The notes beneath the pieces were generated by a model, which was given only the letters and a program-made list of their open reading frames with translations, did no database searches and was not told where the DNA came from. 9,285 nt of DNA from assembly GCA_027064785.1 (NCBI GenBank), contig JAMOPE010000316.1, positions 1 through 9,285 of the forward strand, in the 5' to 3' direction. How positions within the stretch are numbered: position 1 is the first letter of the stretch; each line of letters opens with the position of its first letter. Positions 2-9,285 of the stretch are shown here, piece by piece. Source of the DNA: Geobacteraceae bacterium (lineage in GTDB: Bacteria; Desulfobacterota; Desulfuromonadia; Desulfuromonadales; Geopsychrobacteraceae). Both the position numbers and the translations under genes were made by a program.

Positions 2-811
2 TTCATGCTGCTGATCGCAGCATTCTTCTCCGAGTACCGCGCTCAGATGATGTTTTCAATCACCTTAATTGCGTGGGTCGTCGCACTCCTTGTTGCTAAA
101 CTGGTTCGATCGACAGTTATTAAAGGCGCATCGACACCGTTTATCATGGAACTGCCCCCCTACCGGTTACCAACCCTGCAGGGAATCTTCATCCACACCT
201 GGGAGCGGACGTGGCAATACATCAAGAAAGCGGGAACAGTTATTTTAGCAGTTTCGATTCTTCTCTGGGCAGCGATGACGTTTCCCGGGTTACCACAACA
301 GCAGGTCAACCAGTTTTCATTGGAACGTCAGACAGTCATCAACACTGTTCACACTGAAGCCGAACGCAAAATAGCTCTTACTAAAATCGATAACACTGAA
401 GGACAAGCGGCACTACGCTACTCCCTCGCCGGAAAAATCGGAACGGTTCTTGAGCCAATCAGCCGCCTCGCAGGGTTTGACTGGCGCACCAATATCGCTC
501 TCGTCGGTGGTTTTGCTGCTAAAGAAATTATTGTTTCAACCTTTGGCACCGCTTATTCACTGGGTAAAGTCAATCCGGAAGCGGCAGAAACACTCTCCAG
601 CAGAATTGCCACCGATCCAAACTGGAACAAATTTACAGCATTGGCGATGATTATCTTCGTTCTTCTTTATGCTCCATGCGTTGTCACGGTCGTCACTATG
701 GCGAAAGAGTCGTCGTGGAGCTGGGCAATTTTTGCAACTGTTTTCAATACAACACTTGGATTCATGCTGGCTGTCGCAATATATCAGGTCGGCACTGCAG
801 TATTTCTTTAG
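2..811 (+). CDS. feoB: FeoB ferrous iron transporter, C-terminal part (5' end outside window)
   Basis: This is the C-terminal membrane part of FeoB, the GTP-driven inner-membrane Fe(II) importer. The frame is already open at the first base and the ATG at 5 is internal, so the G-domain and first gate lie upstream of the window. About 269 residues are visible. Membrane helices (for example the IAWVVALLVAKLV stretch) are followed by the family signature MELPPYRLPTLQG. Next come an amphipathic WERTWQYIKKAGT segment, another helix, a charged loop, and the conserved block around GGFAAKEIIVSTFGTAYSLG in the C-terminal gate. Two final hydrophobic helices, one containing YAPCVVTVVTMAKE, end at TAG 809-811. 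The next gene starts 15 bp downstream, so the two are cotranscribed. FeoA, if present, and the operon promoter would be upstream. Family identification is secure; the N-terminal half cannot be judged. Confidence 0.96.
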   Translation, partial: FMLLIAAFFSEYRAQMMFSITLIAWVVALLVAKLVRSTVIKGASTPFIMELPPYRLPTLQGIFIHTWERTWQYIKKAGTVILAVSILLWAAMTFPGLPQQQVNQFSLERQTVINTVHTEAERKIALTKIDNTEGQAALRYSLAGKIGTVLEPISRLAGFDWRTNIALVGGFAAKEIIVSTFGTAYSLGKVNPEAAETLSSRIATDPNWNKFTALAMIIFVLLYAPCVVTVVTMAKESSWSWAIFATVFNTTLGFMLAVAIYQVGTAVFL

Positions 812-826
812 TGACAGGAGATCATC

Positions 827-1039
827 ATGTTTTCATGGGATTTAACACTAACATCACTTATCGTAACAGCAGCAGCCTGTTATGTTGCTTACTCCATCTA
901 TAAAACAATCAGCGGCGCACCAAATGGGTGCTCGGGATGTTGTTCTGCGTGTTCTCACTGCAACCTCACCGGAAGCAGTCAGGAATCTATTGGCGACAAA
1001 ATGGCGCAGGCAATCGCACTGGCGAAACAACAGAAATAA
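827..1039 (+). CDS. FeoB-associated Cys-rich membrane protein
   Basis: This is a 70-residue membrane peptide directly downstream of feoB. One N-terminal transmembrane helix (about residues 7-27, LTSLIVTAAACYVAYSIYK) is followed by a cysteine cluster, GCSGCCSACSHC, at about residues 34-45, and a polar tail ending AIALAKQQK. Size, helix-then-cysteine order and position match the FeoB-associated Cys-rich membrane protein family (FeoC-like in location, not in sequence). The role is not firmly known; iron binding or FeoB stabilisation is a common guess. The ATG at 827 is preceded by a good ribosome binding site (ACAGGAG, about 6 bp upstream). The gene ends at TAA 1037-1039. No U-tract terminator follows it closely on the plus strand, so its mRNA probably runs on to the hairpin at 1273-1317. 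Confidence 0.9.
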   Translation: MFSWDLTLTSLIVTAAACYVAYSIYKTISGAPNGCSGCCSACSHCNLTGSSQESIGDKMAQAIALAKQQK

Positions 1040-1042
1040 ATC

Positions 1043-1081
1043 AAAAAAAATGCCCCATTCCGGAGGAGGCAGAAACGGGGC
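1043..1081 (-). terminator. Rho-independent terminator of small RNA copy 1
   Basis: On the minus strand a GCCCCGTTTC/GGAATGGGGC stem is followed by A and eight T (1050-1043). On the plus strand the hairpin is followed by CTAAGAG with no T-tract, so it is oriented to stop minus-strand transcription only. The response regulator operon already has its own terminator at 1317-1273, so this second minus-strand terminator needs a transcript that starts between the two. Confidence 0.75.
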
Positions 1082-1133
1082 TAAGAGTCCATGATAAATG
1101 GACAAGAGAGATGAACCTTTTTCTGTTACTGGT
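1043..1133 (-). ncRNA. Candidate sigma-54-driven small RNA with anti-Shine-Dalgarno terminator loop (copy 1)
   Basis: A transcript of about 91 nt is predicted, from A1133 (12 nt after the GC of the sigma-54 -12 element) to the end of a T8 tract at 1043. In order on the minus strand it holds: a 5' end ACCAGTAACAGAAAAAGG; a pyrimidine run ATCTCTCTT; a perfect 6-bp hairpin (GTCCAT/ATGGAC, loop TTATC, at 1103-1087); and a terminator hairpin. The terminator stem is 10 bp with two G-U pairs, GCCCCGTTTC with GGAATGGGGC. Its 10-nt loop TGCCTCCTCC contains CCTCCT, the anti-SD sequence of 16S rRNA. No open reading frame of note lies inside. The 5' motif, pyrimidine tract and terminator resemble the candidate RNA at 8021-8094, which is the main reason to treat this as an RNA gene and not a stray hairpin. 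I do not recognise the family. No expression evidence is available. Confidence 0.6.
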
Positions 1134-1143
1134 CAGACCATTT

Positions 1144-1160
1144 AGCAACAGTGGTACCAA
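1144..1160 (-). promoter_or_regulatory. Sigma-54 (RpoN) promoter for the small RNA
   Basis: The minus strand reads TTGGTACCACTGTTGCT. Against the RpoN consensus TTGGCACG-N4-TTGCW, both invariant dinucleotides (GG and GC) are present with exactly 10 bp between them, and only two other positions differ. The predicted start is about 1133. An NtrC-type activator gene ends 181 bp upstream of this promoter in the same orientation. Enhancer sites would be expected in about 1180-1340. A sigma-70 reading (TTACAA, 16 bp, CTAAAT) is possible but much weaker. Confidence 0.65.
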
Positions 1161-1272
1161 TTTGTAATAAAATTGCTCAAGAACCTCTGAACCCGCTAGA
1201 AGTCACAGTCTTTATTGATTTTCTCTCCCCGGGAATTAACGATATAGAGGCCGAAACAACGTATAAAAATAA
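1161..1272. other. Gene-free spacer upstream of the sigma-54 promoter
   Basis: No coding sequence is supported here. The only small structure I see is a GAACC direct repeat at 1181-1185 and 1189-1193 (8-bp period), close to the region where an activator of the sigma-54 promoter might bind. No convincing dyad for an NtrC-type enhancer and no integration host factor site was found by eye. Confidence 0.3.
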
Positions 1273-1317
1273 AAAAGTCGTCCAATGTGGCGATTTTCAG
1301 CCCTTTAGACGACTTTT
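1273..1317. terminator. Bidirectional terminator between the feo operon and the kinase/regulator operon
   Basis: A 10-bp perfect stem, AAAAGTCGTC (1273-1282) and GACGACTTTT (1308-1317), encloses a 25-nt loop. On the minus strand it is followed by a T-rich run (TTATTTTTATAC when read outward) and lies 24 bp past the response regulator stop codon. On the plus strand the right arm itself ends in TTTT followed by ATTATC. It can therefore end both convergent operons, more strongly for the minus-strand one. Confidence 0.8.
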
Positions 1318-1340
1318 ATTATCTGGAACAATTGATAAAT

Positions 1341-2708
1341 TTATTCACCTGTCAGATGATACTTCTCCAGCTTGTAGCGTAATGTTCCACGCGGGACATT
1401 GAGAATCCGTGCCGTCTTGGCAACATTTCCCCCGGTGATCTTGAACGCCTTTTCAACCAGTTCTTTTTCAACCTGACCAACAACGTCGTCCAGAACGATT
1501 CCTTCGGGCGGAATTTCGTAATCAAATGGCATCTCGCTCTGAGGCGATTCGCCCCAGATTTCACGCGGTAAATGAGCCGGTGAAATCTGTTCAACATTGT
1601 GCATGATACAAATTCGCTCAACAACGTTACGCAATTCCCGAACATTCCCCGGCCAATGATAACGCATAACCAGATCAAGGGCGTCACGGCTGAAACCCCG
1701 TATTGACTTATTGAACTCCGTACTGAAACGTTGCAGAAAATATTCAAGTAAAATCGGAATATCTTCGCGCCGCTCACGTAACGGTGGAATATGAATGGGG
1801 AAAACATTGAGACGATAATAGAGATCTTCGCGAAACTCTTTCCGTTCCAGTGCCCCCTTCAGGTCGGCGTTGGTTGCGGCAATAATCCTGACATTAATAT
1901 CAATATTGCGGCTGCCCCCCAGACGGCGTATTTTACGGTCTTCCAGAACCCGCAACAGCTTAACCTGCAGGCTGACGTCCATTTCACCGATTTCATCGAG
2001 AAAAATTGAACCACTATCTGCTTCTTCAAACAGTCCGATTTTACGGTTTTTGGCATCGGTAAAAGCACCACGCTCATGACCGAAGAGTTCTGTTTCAAGA
2101 AGATTAAACGGTAAAGACCCACAGTTGATTTCAATGAACGGCTGTTGGCTGCGCGGCGACAGATTATGAATCGCCTGAGCGACCAGCTCTTTTCCAGTTC
2201 CACTGTCACCGGTAATCAATACCGTCGCCATCTCATGTTTCGCGACTTCACGAATTTGTTGAAAGATCTGTAACAGCTGTGGACTGTTCCCCACCATATT
2301 GATTCCAGAACCATCGCGGGAAAGACGTTTGACTTTACGCCGTAAGTTTTGAGTTTCAAGTGCCAGTTTAACAATCAAGTGGATCGCGTCAGCTTTAAAA
2401 GGTTTTTTAATATAGTCATAGGCACCGATTTTTAAAGCCTCAACAGCACTCTCAACCGTTCCATACCCGGTAATAATAATCACCAGAATCTCAGGATCAA
2501 CCTCCCGCATTGCCCGCAGAACATCAAGACCACTGCTGCTGCCAAGATTCAGGTCAAGAAGAACCAGGCTGATCTCTTCCTCTGCAACAATTCGAATCGC
2601 CTCTTCAGGTGATTCAGTTGAAATGGGACGATAGCCATCCTCAGCAATAATGCGTTCCAGATTTTCGCGGATAAACGCTTCATCATCAACAATAAGAATT
2701 TTTTCCAT
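1341..2708 (-). CDS. NtrC-family sigma-54-dependent response regulator
   Basis: This 455-residue protein is the output half of a two-component system; it activates RpoN promoters. Residues 1-120 are a receiver domain: acidic pair D8-D9, phosphorylation site D52 in LLDLNLG, T80, and K102 in KKPF. Residues about 137-370 are the AAA+ sigma-54 interaction domain: Walker A GDSGTGKE at 167-174, and Walker B GSIFLDEIGE near 233-242. An arginine-finger region (FREDLYYRLNVFPI) and the PLRERREDIP segment follow. The loop that contacts sigma-54 is GAFTDA at 214-219, where the classical motif is GAFTGA. A Fis-type helix-turn-helix ends the protein (GGNVAKTARILNVPRGTLRYKLEKY). The ATG at 2708 has a clear ribosome binding site (ACAGGAG, about 9 bp upstream). 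The kinase stop codon lies 27 bp upstream, so the two form an operon. Targets are unknown; the sigma-54 promoter at 1160-1144 is the nearest candidate. Confidence 0.95.
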   Translation of the reverse strand: MEKILIVDDEAFIRENLERIIAEDGYRPISTESPEEAIRIVAEEEISLVLLDLNLGSSSGLDVLRAMREVDPEILVIIITGYGTVESAVEALKIGAYDYIKKPFKADAIHLIVKLALETQNLRRKVKRLSRDGSGINMVGNSPQLLQIFQQIREVAKHEMATVLITGDSGTGKELVAQAIHNLSPRSQQPFIEINCGSLPFNLLETELFGHERGAFTDAKNRKIGLFEEADSGSIFLDEIGEMDVSLQVKLLRVLEDRKIRRLGGSRNIDINVRIIAATNADLKGALERKEFREDLYYRLNVFPIHIPPLRERREDIPILLEYFLQRFSTEFNKSIRGFSRDALDLVMRYHWPGNVRELRNVVERICIMHNVEQISPAHLPREIWGESPQSEMPFDYEIPPEGIVLDDVVGQVEKELVEKAFKITGGNVAKTARILNVPRGTLRYKLEKYHLTGE

Positions 2709-2735
2709 ATATGACCGCTCCTGTCGATCAACCTG

Positions 2736-5243
2736 CTAATCTTTGGTTATCGGTAACAAAATTTGAACGGTTGTTCCCTCACCAATCTGACTCTCAACCT
2801 CAATTTCTCCGCCATGGTCCGAAATAATATTGTAACTAATAGCCAGCCCCAAACCTGTCCCCTGCCCTTTACTGGTAAAGAACGGCTCAAAAATCAGGGG
2901 TAACTTATCGGCAGGAATTCCAATCCCATTATCGCTCACCCGGATTGCAATCTTCTCTCCCAATTTTTCGACCTCAACCCGCAATTCGCCACCATCGGGC
3001 ATGGCATCCAGAGCGTTGTTGAGAAGATTTATCAGCACCTGTTTTAGCCGGTCACTGTCGAGCATAATCTCGGGAAGATTTCCTTCTATATTTTCGATTA
3101 ACTGTACTTTTTGCCGCTGACACTGCTTGCGAATTAAAAATAGTGAATCGAACACAACCTTATCAATGGTTCCATACGCAAGCTTTGGTGTCGGAACAGA
3201 TGAAAAATGGAGCATTTCATTGACCAGCGACTCAAGGCGTTCAATTTCTCCCAACGCCCGGCGAATCAACTGCTGATCGGTTTCCTGACCGAGTAGCCGA
3301 TCGTGTAATTCATCCAGCAGTAAACTCACCCCGGTTAACGGATTACGGACTTCATGAGCGATCCCTGCGGACATCCGCCCCAGAGAAGCAAGACGATCCA
3401 TCCGTGCCATTTGCTGTCGCATATTGACCCGCTCTGTCAGATCCTCAATCGACAGCAACCACCCTTCCTGCTGGCGAAAGCTCAAGGGGAACATGGCCAT
3501 CAAATATGTCAGTGGCCGACCTTTGCGCTCGAGAGTGATATATTCCCGAAAAGTTCCACCCCCTCCTGCTGGACTGTCTTTAAACCAGCAAATAAGAACT
3601 TCACGCAGTTCAGGCCACTCAGCAAGCAGAACCTTCCAGCTGCAATCATTTCCGGGACGGTGAATCCCCAAAATTCGACACGCAGCACCGTTAGCAGACG
3701 TCACATGGCTCTCAGCATCAAATGTCAGCAGTCCCGTCTCAATATTTTCAAAAACAGTATCCTTGAAGTTACGTTCACGAATAATCTCTTTTCGTGACCG
3801 ACGTAATGCCTGTAATGTTTGGAGAAGGCGCTGCCGTCGTTCATTCAGTTCCCGAACCATCGTATTGAATGAATCGGCAAGGACTCCGACTTCATCATTG
3901 GAGCGGACATGAACTTCAGGTGACAGCTGACCATGGATCATTCTACGCGTTGCATCAGTCAATAAAAGAACGGGCCGGACAATACTGTTTGCCAGCATAT
4001 ATGCAATAGCGACAACAAACATGATTGTTAATGAAATAACGACCCATGATTGCATCAGGTAGTCGTTGATCTCTTTACGAATTAATCGGGATGTCGCGAC
4101 GGCGGGCTGATGAAACTGATCAATTTCAGCACCAATAGTAATCCCGCCGAAAACCTGATGATCTTTGTACTCGCCAGAGGAATAGTGGATTGGGGCATAA
4201 GCCATAATCTTATTTGAGCCACCAACGTTGACAGTTTCAACAACTCCCGACTTACCCTGCAACACAGCTTCTGCAACTTTGGGATAATTGGGGTGAACGA
4301 ACCCTGCTTCGAATAGGTTAAAAGGAATTCGTCCAGACAGGATGTCTTCTTTCGGCGTCGATGCACTATAGGCGGGAACCAGCTTTCCATTGGCATCATA
4401 GCCACGGATATCCCAATACTTCGGGTGAGCAATCATCCACCCCTCATCATCAAACATAAAAGCGTAGTTACCGCTGGAATAGGACGGAAAAATAATCGCT
4501 TTATCGTCAATCGGAGAAATATGCTGAGTGTATTCCATCAAATGACGATGATCGAGAGACAGGACAACAACACCCCGGAACTCATCTCCCTCAAAAACCG
4601 GTGTTGCAAAACGGATAACGCCACGATAGAGAGCACCCTGAACCGCTTCAAGAGGTGTCTCTGCCCCCAGTAACTGCTCATTCCGGCTGACATACCAGCC
4701 ATTTAGATGGGTGACCCAAACCTCACCCGGCTCCAACTGGGACGCATGGACAAAATATGTTTCATTCTTATAAGTTGTGTTCGCTGGATCAGAGACATCA
4801 CGCAAACTGTGAGATGAATCTCCGCCGACAATACGAACCTGCTCCCGACCGTCACTCCCGACAAAAGAGAGTTCACTGTAAAGAAGAATTTTATCACGAA
4901 CCTCAACCGGGTGACTGTTTGTTCCATGCCGGTACCAGAGTTCACGCTGATGACTGTGTGCAAAACGTTTATAGGCATACTCGGTCGTTGGAAGAAGACT
5001 TAAATCAAACAGGTCACCTTCAACTTCACGCAAAAACGACGATACCTGTAAAGCCACCATTTCAGCCCGCAGCCCAAGAGCCTTGGCTGCCTGGCTATCC
5101 AGAGTCTCGGTCGTCCGCTGACGAAGGAGGTCTTCTACCAGAGATAAACTGTGCTGTGAATTGAATAACAGAATACCGAGGGGAACCAGAGAAAGGAGCA
5201 GGAATGCACCCAGAACCTTCTTATGCAGATTAATCCGAAACAT
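2736..5243 (-). CDS. Membrane sensor histidine kinase (Cache-type sensor, HAMP, PAS, HisKA, HATPase)
   Basis: This 835-residue inner-membrane kinase is the partner of the downstream regulator. TM1 lies at about residues 8-27. A large periplasmic sensor region (about 30-395) resembles a double-Cache domain, with [13 protein letters not shown] near 262-274 and a second module ending [12 protein letters not shown]2 is at about 399-418. HAMP follows (about 419-470, P424 and [14 protein letters not shown]), then a PAS-like domain (about 490-605, [16 protein letters not shown]). The HisKA domain carries the phosphoacceptor H630 in [12 protein letters not shown]. The ATPase domain shows the N box [10 protein letters not shown] (739-748), G1 DNGIGIP (771-777), F box FEPFFTSK (785-792) and G2 GTGLGL (795-800), so it should be active. 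Cache domains usually bind small organic ligands; the ligand here is unknown. The ATG at 5243 is the only start that keeps TM1, but it lacks a visible Shine-Dalgarno sequence. Confidence 0.94.
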
Positions 5244-5250
5244 ATGGCGA

Positions 5251-5256
5251 ATTATA
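5251..5256 (-). promoter_or_regulatory. Possible -10 element next to the kinase start codon
   Basis: The minus strand carries a perfect TATAAT only 7 bp before the kinase ATG. A start 7 nt downstream would fall at about 5244, giving an essentially leaderless mRNA, which would fit the missing ribosome binding site. No good -35 hexamer is found 16-18 bp upstream, so this may be chance. Confidence 0.3.
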
Positions 5257-5294
5257 GCCGATTTTGGATTGTGATCATAGGCGGGAATGAAGAA

Positions 5295-5332
5295 CGGAGC
5301 AAATCAGGGGTTAGATAATTCGACTTGCTCCG
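5295..5332 (-). terminator. Weak hairpin between the polyprenyl synthase and kinase genes
   Basis: CGGAGCAA (5295-5302) pairs perfectly with TTGCTCCG (5325-5332) across a 22-nt loop, starting 7 bp past the synthase stop codon. On the minus strand it is followed by TTCTTCATT, a poor U-tract. It may be a partial terminator or an mRNA-stabilising hairpin, leaving some read-through into the kinase. Confidence 0.45.
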
Positions 5333-5338
5333 CAAAAT

Positions 5339-6307
5339 TTATTTATTTCGTGAGACCACGTAGTCGGCCAGAGTATAAAGGGCCTGACGGGCTTCTCCAT
5401 CAGAAAACAGGGCTAACTGTTGTTTTGCTTTTTCGATCCGCTCAGACGCCCTGGTGTGTGTGTATTGAATACCGTCTTTGGCATCGATCAGCTGACAAAC
5501 GTAATCAAGATCTTCTTTCGTCAACTCTTCAGCCTCAATAATCCGCGAAACCTCCTGTTGATCCTGCTCGGTCGCATTAGCATAAGCGTGGATCAACGGC
5601 AGTGTCATTTTCCCTTCAAACAGATCATGTCCCCGTTCTTTCCCGAAGTCTTCTTCGTCGGCAACATAATCAAGAGCATCATCCATCAATTGAAAAGCTG
5701 TTCCAATTTCCAGACCAAATTCACGCAGCGCAGCTTCGTGTTGTTCATCAACACCGGCAAGGACACCGGCAACCTGGCACGCTGCGGCAATCAAAATTGC
5801 GGTTTTATCACGAACAATCTGTAAATAGCGTGGCTCGTCAACTTCGAGATCACAGGTATTAATTAACTGAAGAATTTCCCCTTCGGCCAGTTGAGTTGTT
5901 GTATCCGACAAAATTTTCAGAATACGCAAACTTTCAGAACCAACCATCACGGAGAATGATTTCGCGAACAGAAAATCACCGACCAAAACCGATGCCTGAT
6001 TTCCCCACACAGAATTGGCAGAACGATTACCACGACGCAGGTTCGCACTGTCAACAACATCGTCATGCAATAAAGTTGCGGTGTGAATAAACTCGACGAC
6101 ACCGGCGAGATCAATATGTTTATCCCCCTGATAATCGCACAGGCGGGCACAAAGCAGCAGCAACATCGGCCGAATACGCTTACCACCGCTGGAGAGGACG
6201 TAATTCCCGACTTGACTCACCAGTTTCACATCTGACATCAGATGCTTTTCAAACTGGCGTTCAACCGCCTCCATATCTTCTTTAAGCAGGGCGATGACTG
6301 TATCCAT
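5339..6307 (-). CDS. ispB: Long-chain all-trans polyprenyl diphosphate synthase (octaprenyl type)
   Basis: This 322-residue cytoplasmic enzyme extends farnesyl diphosphate with isopentenyl diphosphate units to make the side chain of respiratory quinones (menaquinone in this group of bacteria). It has the GGKRIRP motif at residues 41-47. The first Asp-rich motif is D82-D83-V-V-D86 in TATLLHDDVVD, and an RRGN motif follows at 91-94. KTA is at 168-170, and the second Asp-rich motif is DDALD at 209-213. The small residues A77 and T78 before the first Asp-rich motif are typical of long-chain enzymes, and TATLLHDDVVD matches the E. coli IspB pattern. Length is normal for the family. The ATG at 6307 is preceded by an AAGGA site about 10 bp upstream, and a consensus promoter lies about 60-90 bp upstream. 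The exact product chain length cannot be read from sequence alone. Confidence 0.93.
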   Translation of the reverse strand: MDTVIALLKEDMEAVERQFEKHLMSDVKLVSQVGNYVLSSGGKRIRPMLLLLCARLCDYQGDKHIDLAGVVEFIHTATLLHDDVVDSANLRRGNRSANSVWGNQASVLVGDFLFAKSFSVMVGSESLRILKILSDTTTQLAEGEILQLINTCDLEVDEPRYLQIVRDKTAILIAAACQVAGVLAGVDEQHEAALREFGLEIGTAFQLMDDALDYVADEEDFGKERGHDLFEGKMTLPLIHAYANATEQDQQEVSRIIEAEELTKEDLDYVCQLIDAKDGIQYTHTRASERIEKAKQQLALFSDGEARQALYTLADYVVSRNK

Positions 6308-6350
6308 GATAGCACTTTTCCTTGTTCTTATTAATGTCGCGAAACGAAGC

Positions 6351-6387
6351 CCCTCGATTGGCAGTGATTCTAGAAATTGCCCGAGGG
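6351..6387. repeat. Nested inverted repeat spanning the ispB core promoter
   Basis: The outer arms CCCTCG (6351-6356) and CGAGGG (6382-6387) enclose inner arms GGCA (6360-6363) and TGCC (6378-6381). These surround a central palindrome TTCTAGAA (6368-6375). As DNA it is a 37-bp dyad centred on the -10 region of the ispB promoter, so it could be an operator. As RNA at the end of the HTH gene transcript it would fold as a hairpin, but no T-tract follows on the minus strand. Confidence 0.55.
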
Positions 6388-6395
6388 ATTGTCAA
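6367..6395 (-). promoter_or_regulatory. Sigma-70 promoter of the polyprenyl synthase gene
   Basis: On the minus strand, TTGACA (6395-6390), a 17-bp spacer, then TAGAAT (6372-6367). The -35 is perfect, the spacing optimal and the -10 one mismatch from consensus. The predicted start near 6360 leaves a 5' leader of about 53 nt. It begins 20 bp past the stop codon of the HTH gene, so the synthase is transcribed independently of that gene. Confidence 0.75.
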
Positions 6396-6414
6396 AACCT
6401 TTTTAAGTAAAATA

Positions 6415-7335
6415 CTACTGATCCAATGGTGGTTCTGCCGGAACGAATTTTTTTTCATCGGGCTGCCATTTGTAGGCACCCATTTCCCATATTTCTTCTA
6501 TCAGGTCCCAACCTAGATCCAAAGGTTCAGCCTCATCGGTCAGATCGGAAATTTCCAGAATTTCAAGGTCATCAATGACCCCGTCCCCATTGCTGTCTGC
6601 CCAGTGAAACGGTTCAATTTTCATTGTCCCGACCGAATCCACCGGTGTCACAGAGCGCTGTCCATCGGGATTCGCAATCAACTCACCATGAATAGCAAAA
6701 TCATCCCCGGCATGAGCATTTTCCGAAACCCTCAGGAGATAAAAAACATGAGTCGTCAGTGGCGGCTTGCGAAAAATCCAGCGAGCTTTTCCTGTTTCAC
6801 TGTCAAGATGAGACACTGCAGGTTGAGCTTCTATCAGCTGCCACCCAGCGGGGAATGTTTCTTTAAGAATCATCCCTTTCAACGGTTTATCTGCTGAAAG
6901 TTCGACACGGATCAGAATCTGACTACTAGGAGCAGCATAAGAAGGAAGGATTCGTTTGGCATGAAGGACCGCTGCAGGGACTGCTGCAGGTTTTAAAGTA
7001 AAATAGCCTGCAGCAACAGCGGCAATGATGACAACAATCAATAATGGAATCCAAGTCTTATTTTTCTTAGAGACTGATGGTTCAACCGACTCAGAATCTT
7101 CAAGCTCAGGCTCTTCTTTAAGAATTTCATCCAGCTCGACTTCCAGGGCTTCTGCCAGCTTCAGAGCATTATCACGCATAATCGTCGGATAACGATTATT
7201 TTCCCAACGCGACACCGTGTCAGTTGTCACACCGACAACTTTTGACACATAAAATTGCGTCAGTCGCTTCTCCTCACGGATTTTCCGAACAACAAGGCCA
7301 TCTATGGCGACAGATGATGTATTTAATGGTTCCAT
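6415..7335 (-). CDS. Membrane-spanning XRE-family HTH protein with periplasmic EF-hand-like loop
   Basis: This 306-residue protein has an N-terminal XRE/Cro-type helix-turn-helix (about 13-72; core LTQFYVSKVVGVTTDTVSRW, then ALKLAEALEVELDEIL). An acidic linker leads to KKNK and one transmembrane helix (about 95-114). The C-terminal region of about 190 residues should be periplasmic. It begins with a beta-rich part (about 135-240) resembling the Ig-like/DUF11 type of fold (for example ETFPAGWQLIEA). It then has a canonical EF-hand loop DSNGDGVIDDLE at 247-258, with ligand positions D247, N249, D251, D255 and E258, and ends in a Trp-rich tail. The layout recalls RodZ (cytoplasmic HTH, TM, periplasmic beta domain), but the C-terminal part is unlike RodZ. 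It may be a one-component transmembrane regulator or a scaffold. Its own promoter is unclear and the ribosome binding site is weak. It is divergent from the cytochrome gene. Confidence 0.85.
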   Translation of the reverse strand: MEPLNTSSVAIDGLVVRKIREEKRLTQFYVSKVVGVTTDTVSRWENNRYPTIMRDNALKLAEALEVELDEILKEEPELEDSESVEPSVSKKNKTWIPLLIVVIIAAVAAGYFTLKPAAVPAAVLHAKRILPSYAAPSSQILIRVELSADKPLKGMILKETFPAGWQLIEAQPAVSHLDSETGKARWIFRKPPLTTHVFYLLRVSENAHAGDDFAIHGELIANPDGQRSVTPVDSVGTMKIEPFHWADSNGDGVIDDLEILEISDLTDEAEPLDLGWDLIEEIWEMGAYKWQPDEKKFVPAEPPLDQ

Positions 7336-7430
7336 ATTGAAGCTCTACGGCAATTTGAAATAATGTTTTGCGGAGTCTAACAGAGAGGAAGGCTAACTGT
7401 AAACAACGGAATGTCACGAGAAAAAGACTT

Positions 7431-7525
7431 ATATCTAGCTGATATCACTACATGTCGACCCGACATCTCACGATATTCTCGCCGATGTCGAATGAAACAG
7501 GATTCTCCTTATGTCATTCTTTCAT
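7431..7525. promoter_or_regulatory. Cluster of dyads between the HTH gene and the cytochrome gene
   Basis: The 228-bp divergent spacer holds several inverted repeats: ATATC-N5-GATAT (7431-7445); ATGTCG-N3-CGACAT (7452-7466), with a further GATGTCGA at 7484-7491; and GAATGA (7490-7495) opposite TCATTC (7514-7519). They lie where operators for either gene would be expected. I see no promoter close to consensus in this spacer on either strand, which suggests activator-dependent or alternative sigma factor use. Confidence 0.4.
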
Positions 7526-7563
7526 CAGGAACAACAACCACCCCAATTTCATAGGAGGAAACG

Positions 7564-7884
7564 ATGAAAAGATTCTTGACCATGCTCTCTGCCACAATCG
7601 TTATTTCAGCATTGGCAACCATTGGTTACGCTGTCACAACAGGACCGGAGAAAGTGGCTTACACTCCCAAAATGGGAACAGTCACATTCGACCACCAGGC
7701 TCACCAGAAACGAACCGATTGTTCAACCTGTCACCACACTGAAGACTATGCCAAATGTACAAGTTGCCATGGTGTCGACCCTAAAGCCCCGAAAGCAAAA
7801 AATGCATTTCACAAAACCTGCAAAGGTTGCCATAAAGAAATGAAAAAGGGCCCGACCAAGTGCAAAGAGTGTCATATTAAATAA
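7564..7884 (+). CDS. Periplasmic tetrahaem cytochrome, class III (c3/c7-like)
   Basis: This 106-residue exported c-type cytochrome has a signal peptide with likely cleavage after GYA (about residue 23). Four CXXCH haem sites are at C53-H57, C65-H69, C86-H90 and C100-H104. There are exactly four other histidines, H44, H47, H58 and H83. Their placement matches the distal ligands of cytochrome c3: a pair three residues apart before haem 1, one directly after the first CXXCH, and one just before the third. All four haems can therefore be bis-His. The N-terminal GTVTFDHQAH and C-terminal GPTKCxxCHxK resemble the trihaem c7 (PpcA) family of Geobacter and Desulfuromonas, which lacks the second haem. 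The likely role is periplasmic electron transfer toward external acceptors. AGGAGG (7553-7558), 5 bp before the ATG, is an ideal ribosome binding site. Single-gene unit with its own terminator. Confidence 0.93.
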   Translation: MKRFLTMLSATIVISALATIGYAVTTGPEKVAYTPKMGTVTFDHQAHQKRTDCSTCHHTEDYAKCTSCHGVDPKAPKAKNAFHKTCKGCHKEMKKGPTKCKECHIK

Positions 7885-7903
7885 TTTTTCAATCAATCAA
7901 CTC

Positions 7904-7938
7904 AAAAGGGTCCCGCTCACCGAAGGGGCCCTTTTTTT
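7904..7938 (+). terminator. Rho-independent terminator of the cytochrome gene
   Basis: AAAAGGGTCCC (7904-7914) pairs with GGGGCCCTTTT (7925-7935) across a 10-nt loop, with one G-U pair, and runs into seven T (7932-7938). It lies 20 bp after the stop codon. Strong and specific for the plus strand. Confidence 0.92.
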
Positions 7939-7986
7939 CTATCCTCATAGTCACCACAAAAAAAGTTAAATATTATTTATTTTTAG

Positions 7987-8014
7987 TTGACATTAATCTT
8001 AAGCCGTTTATAAT
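7987..8014 (+). promoter_or_regulatory. Consensus sigma-70 promoter for small RNA copy 2
   Basis: A perfect TTGACA (7987-7992) is followed by a 16-bp spacer and a perfect TATAAT (8009-8014). It lies downstream of the cytochrome terminator and points toward the C-terminal end of a gene on the opposite strand, so it cannot serve an annotated gene. The predicted start is A8021. An AT-rich stretch upstream (about 7957-7985) could act as an UP element. Confidence 0.8.
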
Positions 8015-8020
8015 GTACTT

Positions 8021-8094
8021 AACAGTAAGAAAACTCTCTCTCAAAAAAAACTTTTTGCCCCGTGTTCTCCCTCCTGACGCGGGGCTATTTTTTT
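8021..8094 (+). ncRNA. Candidate small RNA with anti-Shine-Dalgarno terminator loop (copy 2)
   Basis: A transcript of about 74 nt is bounded by a consensus promoter and a terminator. It starts AACAGTAAGAAAACTCTCTC, continues with A8 and CTTTTT, and ends in a hairpin. The stem GCCCCGTG/CGCGGGGC (8057-8064 and 8078-8085) can be extended by two weak pairs to 10 bp. The remaining loop CTCCCTCCT contains the anti-SD core CCTCCT. The 5' end (ACAGTAA), GAAAA, CTCTCT tract, GCCCCGT stem start and C-rich loop all parallel the candidate RNA at 1133-1043; the internal GTCCAT hairpin of that copy is missing here. No coding potential. It may pair with Shine-Dalgarno regions of mRNAs. I do not recognise a known RNA family. 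Confidence 0.65.
8057..8094. terminator. Terminator of small RNA copy 2, possibly shared with the pyrophosphatase gene
   Basis: On the plus strand the GCCCCGTG/CGCGGGGC stem is followed by TATTTTTTT. On the minus strand the same stem is followed by CAAAAAG and then eight T (8050-8043), and lies 23 bp past the pyrophosphatase stop codon. It can therefore end transcription from both sides. Confidence 0.8.
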
Positions 8095-8107
8095 ATTCAC
8101 AGCATCG

Positions 8108-9285
8108 CTAACCCTTAAAGACTTTCAACAAATGGGGAACAAGTTGTTTCTTACGCGACAGAACTCCATTCAATCGATAAATGTTTTCTTCCTCTTGAGG
8201 GTATCCGATAATAAATGGAAGCTCACTTGATCCGGCAGTCAGCAGCAAACTGTTTTCCATAACAATGTCAGTGATCAGTAGTGCCGCAAGCTCATAACCC
8301 TTTTCCTCACGAACTTTCAATAACTCTGCCCGAAGTTCATCCTTACGGTCATGGAAGGTGTGGAAATTGACAACTTCGACCTGCCCTAAGCCCAACACAT
8401 AATCCCCGACACCATATTCCTTGAAATCGGTAAAGATCAGATCACGTGCCGGCGCACCACTGGCCATGGGACTACCTGCAGCGAACAATTGTGAACCGAA
8501 ATCCTGATGATCAAGCCCGGAGCATTCCTCTAACCACGGAATCAACTGGCGGTCAACGTCGGTTGTTGTCGGTGATTTCAAGATCACTGTATCTGAGAGA
8601 AGCCCTGCGAGTAACAACCCGGCAATATCCTTTTGGGGACGAATTCCTGCCTGCTGAAAAAGGGTTGAAACCAATGAGCAGGTGCTGCCGAGAGGCTGGT
8701 TAATAAATCGAATCGGCAAACTCGTATGAAAATTTCCCAGCCGATGGTGATCGATAACCTCGAGGATATCAACCTTTGAGGCGCCAGGAACGGCCTGACC
8801 CAATTCGTTATGGTCAACAAGAATCAATTTGATCGGCGAATTTTTAATCAGATGGCTTTTGGTTGCCAGTCCGATTAATTGTCCTTCCGGTGAAGCAACA
8901 ACTGCCCCCGACTGTTTGCCATGGGTCAGTTTAATGCGTAAATCCTCAAGAAGATCATTGGGAGAAACAGTCATAAAGTCGGAATCTGCCAGAAGACCGA
9001 CTGGTGTCGCCATCCGGGTTAACCAGACGCAATTTGCAGTATCGAAGCGACTGACCAGCACAGAAACGTGATTTTTACGGGCAATCTCCAGTAAATCATC
9101 ATCCAGAGGAGTATCACCTGAAATAATCAGTAACCGGACGCCGGCTTCAACGGCAAGACGCTGAATACCACTTCGATCGCCGGTGATCAGGATCGTCTTG
9201 CGCGGGTTAACCTCATCAACCCATCGGCCAAAGCTCGCTTCGCGACGGGCACCGACATGAAGGTCGAGATCTTCAACCTCATCGC
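8108..9285 (-). CDS. ppaC: Manganese-dependent (family II) inorganic pyrophosphatase with CBS/DRTGG regulatory insert, N-terminus outside window
   Basis: This cytoplasmic enzyme hydrolyses pyrophosphate to phosphate, pulling biosynthetic reactions forward. The frame is open to the right edge, so about 391 C-terminal residues are visible and the GTG at 9061 is not the start. In order: a DRTGG-type domain (about fragment residues 20-95, ILITGDRSGIQRLAVEAGVR onward); a CBS motif (about 96-150, FMTVSPNDLLEDLRI...GAVVASPEGQLIGLATKSHL); the DHH catalytic part with VDHNELGQAVPG (about 156-167) and VIDHHRLGNF (about 177-186); GSTCSLV; and LLSDTVILKSPTTT. The DHHA2 C-terminal domain ends with SRKKQLVP, which binds substrate. 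The metal-binding HDxDxxG motif and a probable first CBS motif lie outside. CBS-pyrophosphatases are controlled by adenine nucleotides, so activity probably follows cellular energy state. The tail abuts the candidate sRNA terminator. Confidence 0.93.
   Translation of the reverse strand, partial: DEVEDLDLHVGARREASFGRWVDEVNPRKTILITGDRSGIQRLAVEAGVRLLIISGDTPLDDDLLEIARKNHVSVLVSRFDTANCVWLTRMATPVGLLADSDFMTVSPNDLLEDLRIKLTHGKQSGAVVASPEGQLIGLATKSHLIKNSPIKLILVDHNELGQAVPGASKVDILEVIDHHRLGNFHTSLPIRFINQPLGSTCSLVSTLFQQAGIRPQKDIAGLLLAGLLSDTVILKSPTTTDVDRQLIPWLEECSGLDHQDFGSQLFAAGSPMASGAPARDLIFTDFKEYGVGDYVLGLGQVEVVNFHTFHDRKDELRAELLKVREEKGYELAALLITDIVMENSLLLTAGSSELPFIIGYPQEEENIYRLNGVLSRKKQLVPHLLKVFKG

Follow-up and report, generated by a model that had tools for sequence, protein, structure and literature searches.

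A candidate small RNA gene with an anti-Shine-Dalgarno loop at a response-regulator locus that carries a transporter gene in relatives

Two predicted small RNAs in the window

The window analysed here is the whole 9,285-nt contig C316 (JAMOPE010000316.1) of genome G000, a Geobacteraceae bacterium of the order Desulfuromonadales whose assembly comprises 2.37 Mb in 468 contigs. It contains two predicted small RNAs, s1 and s2. Our main subject is s1, which lies behind the gene for an NtrC-type response regulator (RR), at a locus that in relatives can carry a gene for an SLC13 anion transporter. A direct sequence check found both elements as the original prediction had placed them, each with a promoter-like element, a predicted +1 and a terminator. 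Sequence, promoter scan and folding likewise bore out that both loops contain the anti-Shine-Dalgarno (anti-SD) core CCTCC and that the two promoters belong to different predicted sigma factors. The features are as follows.

1144..1159, minus: sigma-54-type −24/−12 element of s1, TGGTACCACTGTTGCT, TGGTAC-N5-TTGCT (sequence)
1043..1133, minus: s1, predicted 91-nt small RNA, predicted +1 at A1133 (sequence, folding, homologs)
1087..1103, minus: hairpin 1 (hp1) of s1, GTCCATTTATCATGGAC (folding of homologs)
1052..1081, minus: terminator stem-loop of s1, anti-SD loop UGCCUCCUCC (folding, terminator scan)
1043..1051, minus: T-run of the s1 terminator (terminator scan)
1341..2708, minus: NtrC-type RR gene, with receiver, sigma-54 activation and Fis-type helix-turn-helix (HTH) domains (Pfam)
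7987..8014, plus: sigma-70-type promoter of s2, TTGACA-16-TATAAT (sequence scan)
8021..8095, plus: s2, predicted 75-nt small RNA, predicted +1 at A8021 (folding, homologs)
8057..8085, T-run to 8095, plus: terminator stem-loop of s2, anti-SD loop CTCCCTCCT (folding, pair counts)

The predicted s1 RNA folds into two hairpins with one CCUCC loop, the motif being present in the terminator loop only, and folds better than its dinucleotide shuffles (z −2.4). Searches with s1 match relatives mainly across these two hairpins. We compared 26 homologs, selected by their C-loop terminator, and added no near-copies, whether from genus g39 or elsewhere. In 25 of the 26, hp1 forms at least 5 pairs just upstream of the terminator. 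RNAalifold and MAFFT left hp1 unaligned, and hp1 was therefore judged by per-row folding with shuffles and not by pair counts. Specifically, the 26 rows have 23 different 5′ arms, and the mean z relative to dinucleotide shuffles is −3.0, a pooled value that is indicative only, because the rows are related. The structure of hp1 is thus kept despite turnover of its sequence. In the terminator stem, six of the ten pairs show changes on both sides, and the covariation score is 0.308 versus 0.186 in shuffles, with none of 500 shuffles scoring as high; 90.8% of the cells are paired in register, versus 61.9% when the 3′ side is slid by +1. No open reading frame (ORF) of at least 8 codons with a stop lies inside the RNA in the nine s1 loci examined that have no transporter gene (ORF-less loci), and a coding role for s1 was rejected on this ground. 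Upstream of the sigma-54 element, a conserved dyad for activator binding was considered and set aside: a TTATAACGATATTT-like block is present in several type-A genomes, in which the sigma-54 pattern stands upstream of SLC13, and is unclear in ORF-less ones.

The promoter of s2 matches at 12 of 12 positions and is the best of 23 sigma-70 sites in the window. The RNA has one clear hairpin, again with the CCUCC motif in the terminator loop only, and folds better than its dinucleotide shuffles (z −3.75). A DNA search of 60 relatives with s2, promoter included, gave strong matches within the family, and 27 homologs, one per genome and all from the 37 family members in the 60-genome draw described below, were aligned. 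The −35 TTGA and the CCTCCTG core of the loop do not vary, and TATAAT is mostly retained. All 260 pair cells of the stem are standard pairs (26 distinct rows), and two pairs show changes on both sides. On the minus strand at the s2 hairpin, AAAAAG is followed by a T-run, and 19 of the 27 loci (hand count) have a directly convergent DHH-type gene no more than about 210 nt away. A pattern scan of named genomes found s2 in 24 contigs; the carriers are Desulfuromusa kysingii, four Desulfuromusa metagenome-assembled genomes (MAGs), two Malonomonas rubra genomes (one a MAG), Pelovirga terrestris, and further MAGs named only to family, order or class. One of the 24, L246 (JADFVC010000439.1), is filed as a Chloroflexi MAG, perhaps through a binning error. 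By the company that its s2 keeps, the window can be described as Desulfuromusa-like. The conservation in related genomes on which the original prediction had been made to depend was therefore found for s1 and s2 alike.

Three states behind the response regulator

We drew 60 genomes, the window's included, of which 49 have the RR at 70% identity or more; 45 of these are informative, having enough downstream DNA (G044 and G056, with the RR at a contig end, and G006 and G010, in which the contig ends, were left out). Three states are found behind the RR. In 12 of the 45, a sigma-54 element is followed by a transporter gene, assigned as SLC13 by PF00939, and nine of these loci have a CTCC-loop, s1-type terminator. 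Seven, the window's genome among them, show sigma-54 element and tail but lack an SLC13 gene between the two, and the remaining 26 have neither unit. The sigma-54 pattern itself is found in 11 of the 12 SLC13 loci (the twelfth has TGGAAC-N5-TTGCT in its place), in 7/7 ORF-less loci and in 0/26 empty loci. In the seven ORF-less loci, the terminator stem starts about 70–105 bases after the start of the element. Ten genomes added through model hits contribute two further loci in the SLC13 state and eight in the ORF-less state, six of these eight belonging to genus g39 (f18), so that ORF-less loci number 15, in five families; in nine of the 15, the window's included, the sigma-54 pattern lies 155–192 nt past the aligned RR end.

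In type-A relatives, the C-loop terminator stem begins 45–68 nt after the aligned SLC13 end. In these genomes the tail comes directly after the SLC13 stop codon and contains the mRNA terminator. One strand of G055 carries, in order, kinase, RR, SLC13, tail, SLC13, tail. Within genus g4, G023 has the transporter and G027 does not, and the sigma-54 element and tail can be aligned between the two. No SLC13 match (PF00939) was found in the 14 genomes of the window's own genus, several of them incomplete.

The RR is likely the activator of s1, in that RR orthologs stand before sigma-54/SLC13 or sigma-54/tail units in relatives. In addition, the RR gene has a terminator-like hairpin of its own upstream of the s1 promoter, so that s1 is apparently a separate unit and read-through from the RR gene is unlikely.

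The history of the locus was approached through a tree of the RR (49 rows, quick method), in which a count of changes cannot separate gain from loss. At least five changes between SLC13-bearing and ORF-less loci are needed; for the ORF-less state alone there are six changes, and starred branches force three of these. In 14 genomes, the RR and SLC13 trees have 8 of 11 splits in common. This agreement fits a pair that was inherited vertically, and on it the ORF is likelier to have been lost repeatedly than to have been inserted repeatedly and precisely. Judged from these sequence comparisons, SLC13 was likely lost repeatedly at the RR locus.

The other features of the window are listed below.

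2..1039, plus: C-terminal part of feoB and a gene for a FeoB-associated Cys-rich protein, convergent with s1 (Pfam)
1273..1317, minus: terminator-like hairpin of the RR gene (terminator scan)
2736..5243, minus: sensor histidine kinase gene, with HAMP, PAS, HisKA and HATPase domains, adjoining the RR gene (Pfam)
between the kinase gene and s2, minus: polyprenyl synthetase gene (Pfam)
between the kinase gene and s2, minus: HTH protein gene (Pfam)
between the kinase gene and s2, plus: class III cytochrome c gene (Pfam)
8108..9283, minus: DRTGG/DHH/DHHA2 protein gene (pyrophosphatase-like), convergent neighbour of s2 (Pfam)

The FeoB-associated small protein scores 23.8 bits, below the Pfam cut-off of 27, and a Cache match in the kinase is likewise below its cut-off. 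The kinase gene adjoins the RR gene also in G055, G021 and G022. A TATAAT at 5251–5256 (minus strand) stops 7 nt short of the kinase ATG, and boxes of TATA type are likewise placed before the kinase start in G020, G021, G022, G027, G087 and G099. The kinase mRNA may be leaderless, and would therefore be beyond the reach of an anti-SD RNA.

C-loop RNAs across the order

A terminator scan of the window returned four strong terminators, of which just two, those of s1 and s2, have a CCTCC loop. In 400 kb of one same-family genome, the loop is present in 1 of 19 strong intergenic terminators, a small sample, with 0.18 expected from shuffled letters; this argues against the CCTCC loop as a generic habit of terminators.

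We built two models, R1 from s2 and R2 from s1, the latter on 12 such loci. R1 identifies a third locus in the window's genome, G000:C373:4515-4580 (E 9e-7), upstream of a gene of the major facilitator superfamily (MFS). The C-loop terminator there (L122 4540-4571) is divergent from an HlyIII gene, and upstream of it lies a GTTGTGGCAGGC stretch that recurs in several family members. At E 0.1, R1 has matches in 70 genomes of the order, versus 17 matches elsewhere in the class (146 genomes overall); five same-order genomes are among the misses listed, and 39 misses are not itemised. With R2 in the 146 genomes of the class, all 31 matches at E 1e-5 or better, among those listed, lie in the order. 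Phylum-wide, R2 matches 7 of 198 at E 0.001, three in the window's family and four weak (E 2.8e-4 to 7.9e-4).

Family f12 has a related stand-alone RNA with two C-rich motifs, of which G126, G085, G120, G162 and G107 have 25, 23, 13, 13 and 9 matches, respectively, at E 0.01; in G126, E is below 1e-9 for 15 of the 25. These multicopy RNAs (L133, L134, L136–L138, L140 and L141, from G126, G085, G087 and G105) carry a TACCTCCTA-type motif in their 5′ portion and have CCCTCCTG as the motif of the terminator loop, and in the aligned f12/f17 RNAs the second CCTCC-type motif lies outside the terminator. TTGACA is present in five of nine aligned copies, and in several copies an imperfect dyad resembling CTGACC...GGTAAG comes after it, such as a repressor site would have. 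Two c-di-GMP-I-GGC riboswitches, both at gathering score, lie amid the f12 C-loop RNAs of L133 (1943–2035 and 3599–3690, minus strand).

C-loop terminators of similar type, preceded by a CT-rich tract, were seen at L125 (1808–1837) and at L123, L124 and L128. The L125 terminator lies in the 3′ untranslated region (3′ UTR) of a gene for an LUD/CCG iron-sulfur protein, and is another candidate 3′-UTR RNA. L132 (G049:C1:1409000-1415000) has three tandem CTCC-loop terminators within about 460 bp of gene-poor DNA.

The original prediction had not recognised the pair as a described family, and the Rfam searches agree. In the window, cmscan to E 10 gave six other weak families, none relevant, and in 15 further loci only two riboswitches, and no C-loop RNA, reached the gathering score. 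A search of the open-licence literature found no description of these C-loop RNAs and, judged from search listings, no paper on small RNAs of Desulfuromonadales. Anti-SD-loop RNAs, 3′-UTR RNAs and sigma-54 RNAs beside their activator are each already known; what is new, as far as the literature listings go, is a class spanning this order, and a transporter locus reduced repeatedly to promoter and tail.

Proposed role, alternatives and known systems

We consider it fairly probable that s1 is a small RNA gene that survived the loss of the transporter from the RR locus, and that it silences mRNAs through its anti-SD loop. As we envisage it, a ligand sensed by the paired kinase would lead the NtrC-type RR to drive sigma-54 polymerase from 1159–1144, yielding a 91-nt RNA that consists of hp1 and a Rho-independent terminator with its U tail. 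The loop of this terminator, UGCCUCCUCC, mimics the anti-SD sequence of 16S rRNA and would base-pair, probably aided by Hfq, with purine-rich ribosome-binding sites on other mRNAs, the translation of which would be held back. In relatives that keep the transporter, the same tail lies in the SLC13 3′ UTR and would act as a 3′-UTR small RNA; s2 would do the same job from a sigma-70 promoter at a second locus. The window's genome has a sigma-54 gene and an hfq gene, the latter present in 58 of the 60 genomes. Precedents are on record: the terminator loop of LhrC takes part, together with other motifs, in binding the lapB start region (PMC4132741), and the anti-SD loops of alpha-r14/NfeR1 silence ntrBC (PMC10746234), with the same loops present in SmelA075 (PMC3927594). 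A caution comes from PmaR, in which a C-rich loop acts mostly positively and most predicted sites are not close to a ribosome-binding site (PMC6234868).

Chances seem to us even for a broader proposal, that the SLC13 locus turned several times into a free-standing regulator, within an order-wide class of anti-SD-loop RNAs of up to about 25 copies per genome. Here the ORF would have been deleted and the sigma-54 promoter joined to the 3′-UTR RNA, leaving a two-component system that now makes only a regulatory RNA.

Several observations weigh against the main reading. The preference for ORF loss over gain rests on tree congruence and not on a rooted test. G022, which is ORF-less at the RR locus, has an SLC13 gene of the same type at another site, where the terminator has a TGAC loop. 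SLC13 is likewise found away from the RR in several genomes that have no unit behind it, so that in such genomes 'lost' may mean 'moved'. Six ORF-less loci of genus g39 (f18) have no consensus −24 element, and the RR-adjacent SLC13 loci of G019, G025 and G034 have no CTCC loop. Furthermore, s1 is absent from 11/11 other informative genomes of its genus (two more end at contig edges), and is therefore dispensable there. Sliding the 3′ side by +1 also yields six both-side-changed pairs in the s1 terminator, and conservation of the loop is partly built in, because ORF-less loci were scored by finding a C-rich terminator; hp1 was not a criterion in that scoring.

The search for targets is a further point on this side. 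Stretches of 9 nt that exactly complement the s2 loop and stand before an ATG number 0 in the window's genome (reversed pattern, 1) and 28 in 15 genomes, versus 17 for the reversed pattern. Comparison of 27 of the 28 sites gave no recurring gene start of any notable length, the exception being one pair of short reading frames (46 aligned residues) from two members of the order. A specific target recognised by extended complementarity did not emerge from these counts or this comparison. In several genomes, though not consistently, the RR start region offers the s1 loop one of its best pairings at the locus; feedback on the RR's own start region was set aside for this inconsistency.

The absence of s1 from the rest of its genus, together with the lack of an ORF and of a recurring target, would also suit a decaying remnant, with promoter and terminator left behind by the transporter and a short transcript that does nothing. 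We regard this as unlikely, since ORF-less promoter-and-tail units persist in 15 genomes of five families, several changes apart on the RR tree, and a dead remnant would not long hold the structure of hp1 through turnover of its sequence. Could the C-rich loop instead serve only termination or RNA stability, with s1 and s2 as ordinary terminators and that of s2 also ending the convergent DHH gene? Both loops do sit in Rho-independent terminators, and the DHH gene is directly convergent in 19/27 s2 loci. This seems distinctly improbable given the 1/19 count of CCTCC loops, the −35/−10 promoter kept in 27 s2 homologs, the AAAAAG that precedes the T-run after the hairpin on the minus strand, and the second motif outside the terminator in f12/f17 RNAs. 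We give an equally small chance to the idea that the C-rich loops act as decoys, titrating Hfq, some CU-binding protein or a different small RNA, and do not pair with mRNAs: the many f12 matches per genome would suit titration, but CCUCC exactly complements the core of the ribosome-binding site, and similar motifs of LhrC and NfeR1 act on mRNAs.

Least credible to us is that s1 and s2 are true paralogs, arisen by duplication of one small RNA gene, as the original prediction had proposed from a shared 5′ motif (ACCAGTAA and AACAGTAA). The stem, loop and CT tract are similar, and the s1 model matches s2 weakly (E 0.0025). But the 5′ motif is conserved in neither family, and paralogy was therefore rejected as unproven. 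Predicted RNA starts in s1 relatives read ACAATTAT (G020), CAGAATAT (G021) and TCCAGGAT (G022), those of the 27 s2 homologs read AAAGATAA, AAAGGTAA, CAAAGAGA and others, and CTCTCT is present in 15/27 s2 homologs versus 3/26 s1 homologs. In addition, s2 has no hp1, and s1 traces to the SLC13 locus. What is left in common is a GCCCCG stem with a C-rich loop; because such stem-loops are found at many other loci in the order, a common origin is neither shown nor excluded.

The origin of new small RNA genes is an open question, with 3′ UTRs as a favoured source. It is rare to find the intermediate and end states of a single locus together; here, in one order, the same RR is followed by a transporter with an RNA tail, by promoter and tail alone, or by nothing. 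With these three states behind one regulator, and the tail-alone state recurring within the order, which part of the operon is selected becomes directly testable. If the locus was indeed converted several times into a free-standing regulator, the loci would form a natural ORF-deletion series in which the 3′ UTR was a selected part. Desulfuromonadales also gain a set of candidate small RNAs with clear seeds.

Among known systems, Qrr (Vibrio, luxO) and CrcZ (Pseudomonas, cbrB) are sigma-54 small RNAs beside the gene of an NtrC-type activator. Similarly, s1 has a −24/−12 element next to an NtrC-type gene, in a genome that encodes sigma-54. It differs in coming from a transporter locus and in its anti-SD loop, in place of which Qrr has the Qrr pairing region and CrcZ has CA motifs, and no such Rfam match was found in the window. 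With 3′-UTR small RNAs, s1 shares the position between stop codon and terminator seen in type-A relatives, whereas the window and the other ORF-less loci have no coding sequence, the tail standing behind the locus's own sigma-54 element. The csRNAs of streptococci and the CCUCCUCCC cuckoo RNAs of Rhodobacter have C-rich loops able to pair with ribosome-binding sites, as do, in having such loops, s1 and s2; they belong to other phyla and have other promoters and structures, and neither gave an Rfam match in the window.

As with anti-SD small RNAs in general, s1 combines a CCUCC loop in a conserved structure with a genome that encodes Hfq. Alpha-r14/NfeR1/SmelA075 of Rhizobiales resemble it in that anti-SD loops are fixed while stems diverge and NfeR1 is wired to the NtrBC two-component system (PMC10746234, PMC3927594). 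Alpha-r14 RNAs have three hairpins each with CCUCCUCCC and NfeR1 is repressed by NtrC, whereas s1 has one anti-SD loop, in the terminator and reading CCUCCUCCGG, and would be activated. CCUCCUCCC is in neither s1 nor s2, neither has the three hairpins, and no alpha-r14 match was found by Rfam in the window (to E 10) or the 15 further loci. LhrC of Listeria is a multicopy RNA linked to a two-component system, with a C-rich terminator loop among the parts that pair with lapB mRNA (PMC4132741). It has the motif in three places and belongs to another phylum, whereas s1 and s2 have it in the terminator loop only, and Rfam gave no LhrC match in the window or the 15 further loci. The RNAs of family f12 come closer to LhrC than s1 does, through their two C-rich motifs and high copy number.

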